DNA from: Flavobacteriales bacterium
GTDB taxonomy: Bacteria; Bacteroidota; Bacteroidia; Flavobacteriales_D; Sanyastnellaceae
Length of the DNA stretch: 38,446 nucleotides
NCBI GenBank assembly: GCA_020437755.1
Contig: JAGQVX010000020.1
Location: 1 to 38,446, forward strand
Direction of reading: 5' to 3'
Shown: positions 23,331 to 25,414 of the stretch, in pieces
How the letters are laid out: each line of letters begins with the position of its first letter
Numbering within the stretch: the first letter of the stretch is position 1
Notes under the pieces: generated by a model
The model's input: the letters and a program-made list of their open reading frames with translations, nothing else
Told to the model about the DNA's origin: nothing
Databases searched by the model: none
Program-made: the position numbers and the translations under genes

Positions 23331-23819
23331 ATGTCTGAAGCATTCGAATTTCAAATCCGCCGGGGCAAAATAACCGACCTGCAAGCTGTACTCGATCTGA
23401 TCCGGGAGTTGGCCATTTATGAGAAATGTCCAAATGAGGTGACTTTGACTATAGAACAACTGGAGCAAGATGGATTTGGTAATGCGCCTGCCTACTTGCT
23501 GTGGGTGGCAGAAGTCGCTGAAGAAGTGGTGGGTTTGGCGTTGTGTTACCCCAAGTACAGCACCTGGAAAGGGCGTTGCTTGTATTTGGAAGATCTTGTC
23601 GTCAAAGAGGAATTTCGTGGAAAGGGCCTTGGAGGTGCATTGTTCAAAGAGGTTGCTACATTCAGCGCCAATGTTGGAATGGCCCGACTGGAGTGGCAGG
23701 TGCTTGATTGGAATGAACCGGCTATCAGGTTCTATGAGTCCCTCCATGCCCATTTGGATTCGGAATGGGTGAATTGCAGACTAACAGGTGAGTCATTAAC
23801 GAGATACGCGAGTATATGA
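23331..23819 (+). CDS. GNAT family N-acetyltransferase
   Basis: The 162-residue protein has the GNAT fold: acetyl-CoA loop FRGKGLGGALF near residue 100 and the late motif NEPAIRFYESL near 130. Its N terminus (RRGKITDLQAVLDLIRELAIYEK) resembles the spermidine/diamine acetyltransferase branch, which acetylates small amines, but the substrate is uncertain. Its stop overlaps the aspartate kinase start (ATGA at 23816-23819), so the two genes are probably co-translated. A near-consensus -7 box TATACTTG lies 8-15 bases upstream. Confidence 0.9.
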   Translation: MSEAFEFQIRRGKITDLQAVLDLIRELAIYEKCPNEVTLTIEQLEQDGFGNAPAYLLWVAEVAEEVVGLALCYPKYSTWKGRCLYLEDLVVKEEFRGKGLGGALFKEVATFSANVGMARLEWQVLDWNEPAIRFYESLHAHLDSEWVNCRLTGESLTRYASI

Positions 23820-25093
23820 AGGTTTTCAAGTTTGGTGGAGCCTCGGTGAAAAGTGCCGATGCGGTTAGAAACATAGTTGATATTCTGAGGAAGTTTGAAC
23901 ACACGAAGATCATAATCGTGGTGAGCGCAATGGGCAAGATGACTAATCTATTGGAGAAAGCCGTTGAAGCCCATCGCAATGGATCGCCTTATGATTCGGT
24001 GGTTGCCGAGTTCAGACACTACCACAGCGAGATTATTCATGAGCTCGGCGGACTAAGTCAGGATGTGCAGTCGCGGATTGATGGATTTATGGAAGAGTTG
24101 GATCAGCTCTTGAGCTTGCCGGTGGCATCCGACTACGGGATGGACTATGACCGAATCGTGTCGATAGGGGAACTGGTTTCCACATCCATCATTGAGGGCT
24201 TCCTGAAATCATCCGGATTCAGATCGGAGTGGCTGGATGTACGCAATGTGATTGTAACGGATCAGAAGCATCAGAATGCCGATGTGAATTGGACACGATC
24301 ATCGGCCAATGCCGATATCATGCACCATCACCTAAACGAAGGTGATACCGATATGCTCGTGACTCAAGGGTTTATTGGTCGCAGCGCTTTGGGCAATACC
24401 ACAACCCTGGGTCGGGAAGGTTCCGATTTTTCGGCGGCCATCCTGGCCTATCTGTGCGACGCAGAGGATGTGACCATTTGGAAGGATGTTCCCGGAATGC
24501 TGAATGCCGATCCCAAGTGGTTCAACAATACGATTAAGTTGGAAGAGGTGTCATACAGAGAAACCATCGAGCTTAGCTACTATGGGGCATCGGTGATTCA
24601 CCCCAAAACCATCAAGCCTCTTCAAAACAAGAATATTCCTTTATATGTAAAGTCGTTCCTTCATCCCGAAGATCCCGGCACGTCTATTCGCGATGGAGCC
24701 ACCTGTGTGCCTGAAGTGCCCTCGTACATCTTCAAAGCCGATCAGGTGTTGATTTCCATTTCACCCAAAGACTTTTCATTCATAGTGGAACAGAGTCTGA
24801 GCGAGATTTTCCAGGCCATTTCTGATTGTGGTATGAAAATTAACCTCATGCAGAATTCGGCGCTTAGCTTTTCGATCGTAGTTGATAATCAACCTGCTCG
24901 TCGCCAGCAACTCATGGAGTTGTTGTCGGGGTCATTTTCAGTGAGGTACAATGAAGGTCTCAAGTTGCTGACCATTCGCCATTACGACAAGAAAATTGCC
25001 GACAGCCTCACTCAAGGCAATGAAATACTGGTTGAACAACGCAGCCGACACACCTGGCGAATCGCCATGCGTGAGCTCTCCAAAAGCGAATAG
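23816..25093 (+). CDS. Aspartate kinase
   Basis: The enzyme phosphorylates aspartate, the first step toward lysine, methionine, threonine and diaminopimelate. The 425-residue product starts with the kinase motif KFGGASVKSADAV. It shows the amino-acid kinase core with TLGREGSDFSAAILA near residue 200 and WKDVPGMLNADPK near 220, then C-terminal ACT-like regulatory sequence (about 300-410). It appears monofunctional: no homoserine dehydrogenase domain follows. The ATGA overlap with the GNAT gene fixes the start. Confidence 0.95.
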   Translation: MKVFKFGGASVKSADAVRNIVDILRKFEHTKIIIVVSAMGKMTNLLEKAVEAHRNGSPYDSVVAEFRHYHSEIIHELGGLSQDVQSRIDGFMEELDQLLSLPVASDYGMDYDRIVSIGELVSTSIIEGFLKSSGFRSEWLDVRNVIVTDQKHQNADVNWTRSSANADIMHHHLNEGDTDMLVTQGFIGRSALGNTTTLGREGSDFSAAILAYLCDAEDVTIWKDVPGMLNADPKWFNNTIKLEEVSYRETIELSYYGASVIHPKTIKPLQNKNIPLYVKSFLHPEDPGTSIRDGATCVPEVPSYIFKADQVLISISPKDFSFIVEQSLSEIFQAISDCGMKINLMQNSALSFSIVVDNQPARRQQLMELLSGSFSVRYNEGLKLLTIRHYDKKIADSLTQGNEILVEQRSRHTWRIAMRELSKSE

Positions 25094-25126: not shown

Positions 25127-25158
25127 TTGACCGGTAACCGAAAATATCCTTATATTTG
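25127..25158 (+). promoter_or_regulatory. Promoter of small RNA candidate
   Basis: TTG (25127-25129) and a perfect TATATTTG (25151-25158) are separated by 21 bases, fitting the Bacteroidetes promoter consensus TTG-N19-21-TAnnTTTG. Transcription would begin at about 25164. It is one of only two boxes in the window with both halves well placed. Confidence 0.7.
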
Positions 25159-25163
25159 TGTCA

Positions 25164-25289
25164 TCTGTAGGGCCTCTAATCCCTACAAATAAGGCAAATT
25201 TTCATAGTTTACAATGTACTAATTGTAATGGTAGTTTTAGTTTAATGTTAAGTGGAATAGGGACTGAGCGCAGTCCCTATTTCTTTTTT
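25164..25289 (+). ncRNA. Candidate structured small RNA (or terminated leader)
   Basis: About 125 bases bounded by a good promoter and a textbook terminator, with no ORF. Three perfect hairpins are seen: TGTAGGG/CCCTACA (25166-25172 with 25181-25187, 8-base loop CCTCTAAT); TTACAAT/ATTGTAA (25209-25215 with 25222-25228, 6-base loop GTACTA); and the terminator stem (25256-25281). The 5' hairpin begins within 2-3 bases of the predicted start. It could be a free-standing small RNA or an attenuated leader of the ExbD-like gene, which starts 125 bases after the terminator. TAGGG in the terminator's left arm could also pair with CCCTA at 25181-25185, a weak possible antiterminator. I did not recognise a known RNA family. 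Confidence 0.65.
25256..25289 (+). terminator. Strong rho-independent terminator of the RNA candidate
   Basis: An 11-base-pair perfect stem AATAGGGACTG/CAGTCCCTATT (25256-25266 with 25271-25281) around AGCG is followed by TC and six T residues. It lies well beyond the aspartate kinase stop, so it fits best as the end of the RNA candidate, although read-through from aspartate kinase would also stop here. Confidence 0.88.
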
Positions 25290-25414
25290 AACACCGTTGG
25301 TTTTCTGCACACTACCGATGCCTTTTTATCCCTATCCGTTGCTTGGTTTTTGGTGTTTTCTTTCAATAATGTTCTGGTATTGTGGGTTTTATGATTGTAT
25401 TAAACCGTATAATC
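25290..25414. other. T-rich gap upstream of the ExbD-like gene
   Basis: This 125-base stretch follows the terminator. It is T-rich and pyrimidine-biased, with no clear TAnnTTTG box, hairpin or ribosome-binding site. The promoter of the ExbD-like gene was not identified, leaving open that it depends on read-through from the RNA upstream. Confidence 0.4.

Follow-up and report, generated by a model that had tools for sequence, protein, structure and literature searches.

A new family of structured small RNAs, candidate regulators, in a family-level clade of Flavobacteriales

Results

A small RNA gene between lysC and exbD

The window, by which we mean the whole stretch of 38,446 nucleotides of Flavobacteriales bacterium DNA that was analysed, contains a small RNA gene at 25163-25289 on the forward strand, with a promoter, three hairpins and an intrinsic terminator. 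It lies between the aspartate kinase gene lysC (AA_kinase; 23816-25093, forward strand) and an exbD gene on the same strand, the window genes being named from Pfam. The promoter (25127-25158, forward strand) is of the Bacteroidota type, with TTG at 25127-25129, a 21-nt spacer and TATATTTG at 25151-25158, which bears out the original prediction of a TTG/TATATTTG promoter ahead of the hairpins. The position of TATATTTG places the transcript start near 25163 and the T-tail gives its end, so that a forward-strand transcript of ~127 nt (25163-25289) is predicted. The start near 25164 proposed earlier is thus closely matched, although it remains a reading of the -7 box. As had also been noted, the gene contains no conserved ORF; the long listed frame at 25158-25394 reads straight across the terminator.

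The predicted transcript begins with a 7-bp hairpin, H1 (25166-25187), which forms a 5' cap with the arms TGTAGGG (25166-25172) and CCCTACA (25181-25187). Next comes the linker AAGGCAAATTTTCATAG (25191-25207), which is confined to a close group of homologues and is present, exactly or with one mismatch, at the RNA locus in all 11 of the close-group genomes scanned. Hairpin H2 (25209-25228) also has 7 bp, mostly A-U, between TTACAAT (25209-25215) and ATTGTAA (25222-25228). It is followed by a conserved single-stranded core, TGGTAGTTTTAGTTTAATGTTAAGTGGA (25229-25256), part of which, resembling AGTTYAAYGYYAAGTG, is common to nearly the whole family; in nearly all copies a core like AGUUYAAYGYYAAGUG lies directly 5' of the terminator. 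The terminator itself (25257-25289) consists of hairpin H3, with arms at 25257-25266 and 25271-25280, and a tail of six Ts (25284-25289); the apical sequence CTGARCGCAG of H3 is kept in the close group. All these elements are on the forward strand. Three perfect hairpins of 7, 7 and 11 bp and a T-tailed terminator had been described. All are indeed present, but the H3 stem has 10 pairs counted across homologues and up to 13 in the window sequence, not 11.

The window RNA folds with a predicted energy of -41 kcal/mol, against -24.9 for shuffled sequences (z -4.72; none of 200 as good). The z scores of 17 homologues lay between -2.8 and -6.2 in 15 cases and were weaker, about -1.6, in the remaining two (L052 and L161). 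In single-sequence folds H2 may be lengthened by a UCAU/AUGG pairing, in columns that hardly vary.

Distribution of the RNA

A DNA search matched the central ~100 nt strongly in eight further genomes of this family, and less strongly in one more. A covariance model, R1, was run on 299 genomes of the order and gave 12 strong single-copy matches, every one of them in family f1. In DNA downstream of lysC from genomes without R1 matches, G075 and G003 have a motif in common before a terminator; when GTTYAAYGTYAAGTR was used as a search pattern, it appeared at this locus in four genomes of genus g3, and also in g9. A second model, R2, built solely from g3 and g9 copies and containing no close-group sequence, found members in g3, g9 and g5 and independently re-found the close-group copies of G025 (E 4.9e-4) and G006 (E 6.4e-3), the E-values of such home-made models being rough. 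A third model, R3, built from both the close group and the diverged members, matched 27 f1 genomes, with two marginal matches elsewhere in the order. Together with G018, which was found by R1, these make 28 genomes in nine genera of one family-level clade. Each has one copy at one conserved locus, although G025 has a second, marginal match. Most of the genomes are metagenome-assembled, and the copies, being kin, are not independent observations.

Neither R1 nor R3 found a convincing copy across the order outside f1, and R2 found nothing convincing outside f1 in 296 genomes of the phylum. The RNA is absent from other f1 genera, such as g4 and g14, in which the DUF2795 gene follows lysC almost directly. 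Weak R1 matches in g8 and f9 (L053, L054 and L056) were rejected, as they resemble unrelated terminators; L055 is a further weak match of this set. Phage and plasmid collections contained no match to the RNA, and two pattern matches in viral contigs were judged coincidental. A contig titled Chryseobacterium gleum (CAMCHP010000001.1, L059) carries a lysC-RNA locus identical to that of the f1 genome G015, and its label looks wrong.

The RNA is under selection for structure

The central ~100 nt of the RNA are 86-98% identical in close relatives and 78% identical in the outlier G018. For comparison, the third codon positions of lysC, in the window versus the other genomes, are only 31-39% identical and essentially saturated. 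Among 11 distinct sequences, 93.9% of pair cells were paired, eight of the 21 pairs had changed on both sides and 26 cells were doubly changed; none of 500 shuffles reached this cell count or the covariation score. In the close group, changes on both sides affected all four of the counted pairs of H1 and four of the ten pairs of H3, in which 97% of cells were paired. H2 is nearly invariant there, and in sister genera its place is taken by another hairpin. In the wider family, double changes occurred in 25 of 28 pairs (81 cells; 0/500 shuffles), in an alignment that was itself fitted to the structure. Sliding the partners by 1-3 columns abolished the covariation signal in both alignments. Sequence conservation resides mostly in the unpaired stretches, and H1 is free in sequence while its shape is kept. 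For R2, RNAalifold suggested that the core pairs over a long range with an upstream motif; we discarded this pairing, since in g5 and g9 the motif lies ahead of the predicted start and shares positions with the -7 box. The H1 loop, GGAUUGGUCUCC, is nearly invariant in g3, g5 and g9 (L151-L162), unlike in the close group, and may thus represent an additional functional site there.

Most of 22 homologues likewise have a -33/-7 pair of the Bacteroidota type ahead of H1 (combined p ~7e-7 against shuffled upstream DNA, a value that is indicative only since the sequences are kin). The best pair ends 4-16 nt 5' of H1, and thus the transcript would begin at or shortly before this hairpin. The g5 and g9 promoters have TAACATTG or TAACCTTG in common, with TTG mostly 19 nt upstream.

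These results show that 25163-25289 is a real RNA gene under purifying selection, with a conserved structure and independent of its neighbours. The original prediction would have failed had the stems decayed while the surrounding genes were conserved. The outcome was the opposite: compensatory changes have preserved the stems, and the RNA outlasts lysC.

Independence from the neighbouring genes

In the close group, 44-126 bp always separate the RNA from the aspartate kinase gene upstream, which has the same orientation, and lysC precedes the RNA in g3 too, as in most copies. This arrangement might suggest that the RNA is a 3' UTR element of the lysC mRNA or the product of processing at its 3' end, which we consider very unlikely: the -33/-7 promoter stands between lysC and H1 in most copies, and g5 and g9 (L158-L162) have lost lysC from the otherwise conserved GNAT-lysC-RNA-DUF2795-adenosyltransferase locus and kept the RNA. 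There the RNA is flanked on one side by GNAT acetyltransferase/CvpA and on the other by convergent DUF2795 and cobalamin adenosyltransferase genes. Since the RNA persists where lysC is lost, it is not a lysC 3' element.

The original proposal allowed for either a terminated leader or a new small RNA. In the window and in G001, its sister genome, exbD comes next on the same strand, as expected of an attenuator controlling it. This reading is contradicted by synteny, which makes it extremely improbable: exbD adjoins the RNA in these two genomes only, and is absent from the other copies examined, in which the downstream neighbours are the convergent DUF2795 and cobalamin adenosyltransferase genes. 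Since exbD is usually absent, the RNA is not an exbD leader. The small RNA half of the proposal, in contrast, is supported by the RNA's own promoter and terminator, by the compensatory changes and by the lack of an Rfam family.

Comparison with known RNA families

The first inspection had not recognised the family, in agreement with Rfam 15, which gave no family at gathering score for the window or for eight homologous loci, and none for the RNA at relaxed thresholds. The best weak match was FopS (RF04319; 25.1 bits, E 0.11, against a gathering score of 56), and the RNA was the only match to this model at E<=1 in the window genome. When 11 genomes from the family and the order were searched with the FopS model, no match passed the cut-off; across the phylum, only two genomes of one genus and the Bacteroides control exceeded it.

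FopS of Bacteroides is an RNA of ~65-75 nt with a single hairpin and 12-15 copies per genome; it is bound by the RRM protein RbpB and represses susC-type mRNAs (PMC11697453). GibS of Bacteroides thetaiotaomicron is a base-pairing sRNA that has an R1 seed in common with FopS (PMC7366714, PMC11697453), and the window RNA is related to it only through the FopS comparison. The window RNA resembles FopS in several respects: it stands alone, its promoter is of the Bacteroidota type, it has an intrinsic terminator and a conserved unpaired stretch, and the blocks UUUUCAUAGU and UUUAA-GUUAA are similar. It differs in its length of ~127 nt, its three hairpins, its single copy per genome and its score of 25 bits. 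The uninterrupted FopS seed, UUUUUCAU(A/G)GUAUUAGAUUUAAGG, is not found, H2 separating the blocks. Genes for an RRM protein occur in G000 and nine of 12 other genomes.

Rfp18 of Flavobacterium psychrophilum is likewise a flavobacterial sRNA with conservation beyond the species and a strong predicted secondary structure (PMC9723704), the comparison being with its description; within the order, R1 and R3 have no convincing copy outside f1. In common with structured bacterial sRNAs in general, the RNA has its own promoter and terminator, compensatory changes and no conserved ORF.

Discussion

On balance, we favour a reading in which this single-copy intergenic RNA of ~127 nt represents a new family of regulatory sRNAs that probably act by base pairing in trans. 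Indeed, the location of the conserved parts, mostly unpaired, together with an H1 conserved in shape only, suggests that the sRNA acts by base pairing, its 5' end protected by a hairpin and its 3' end formed by a terminator. The Bacteroidota-type (primary sigma) promoter would start the RNA at or just before H1, H1 would probably shield its 5' end and the intrinsic terminator would end it. The unpaired AAGGCAAAUUUUCAUAG and UUUAGUUYAAUGYYAAGUGG would most likely be the mRNA base-pairing sites, and an RNA-binding protein may assist the pairing. Duplex energies with 617 start-codon regions, taken from 0.8 Mb of one relative (G012), did not exceed those of shuffled seeds, and antisense pattern scans found no near-perfect or long antisense site across genera, only the RNA gene itself recurring; short seeds would slip past both searches.

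A short seed would not require ~90 nt of near-invariance, and a stretch of this length could reflect protein binding or several targets. In the main alternative, which is possible but clearly less probable, the partner of the conserved core and hairpins is a protein, which they bind, sequester or scaffold, rather than an mRNA, in a logic like that of 6S or CsrB. The very long conserved stretch, invariant H2 included, would fit this, as would the lack of excess start-codon complementarity and the survival of the common core beside the terminator when H2 is fully replaced. However, neither a repeated binding motif nor a promoter-mimic structure is visible, and no known protein-binding RNA family matches. 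We think it unlikely that the RNA is a core RNA specific to the clade, binding protein mainly through the AGUUYAAYGYYAAGUG core and the terminator hairpin, as a global regulator without counterpart in other bacteria. It is more doubtful still that it is a true distant member of GibS/FopS whose seed has been split by an inserted hairpin and which represses mRNAs of outer-membrane transporters. Apart from the sole E<=1 match noted above, this is favoured by UUUUCAUAGU and UUAG-UUUAAKGUUAA, which flank H2 in the FopS order, an arrangement reached by 0-2 of 500 shuffles, and by none in most close-group copies. Yet this two-block test was devised after the match had been seen, and the plain FopS profile was not significant (in 11 of 12 copies, 62-119 of 1000 shuffles did as well; the twelfth had no match). 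Since, in addition, the first block is missing in sister genera and copy number and architecture differ, we do not claim membership.

We regard the preferred base-pairing sRNA as a new family of a known kind, structured small regulatory RNA, absent from Rfam. Bacteroidota lack the classical sRNA chaperones of Pseudomonadota (PMC11697453), and few small RNA families have been described in the phylum outside Bacteroides. In these uncultured flavobacteria, a single-copy RNA that is better conserved than the adjacent protein genes clearly qualifies as a candidate for an important regulator, and the covariance model makes its annotation possible across the clade. It is possible that the RNA works like FopS; if the partial likeness is real, the regulatory principle would reach beyond gut Bacteroidaceae.

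Finally, two minor observations concern FopS. Two loci of genus g6, L033 and L265 (in G006 and G025), both contain TTTGCACATAGTTTAAAGTTAGGTTAGGCAGGGCAG followed by a terminator and represent a second possible FopS-like RNA. Weak matches to the FopS model (L031 and L035) can be antisense to ATGAAAA gene starts of signal-peptide proteins; were FopS seeds to mirror starts of this type, such matches would be expected.
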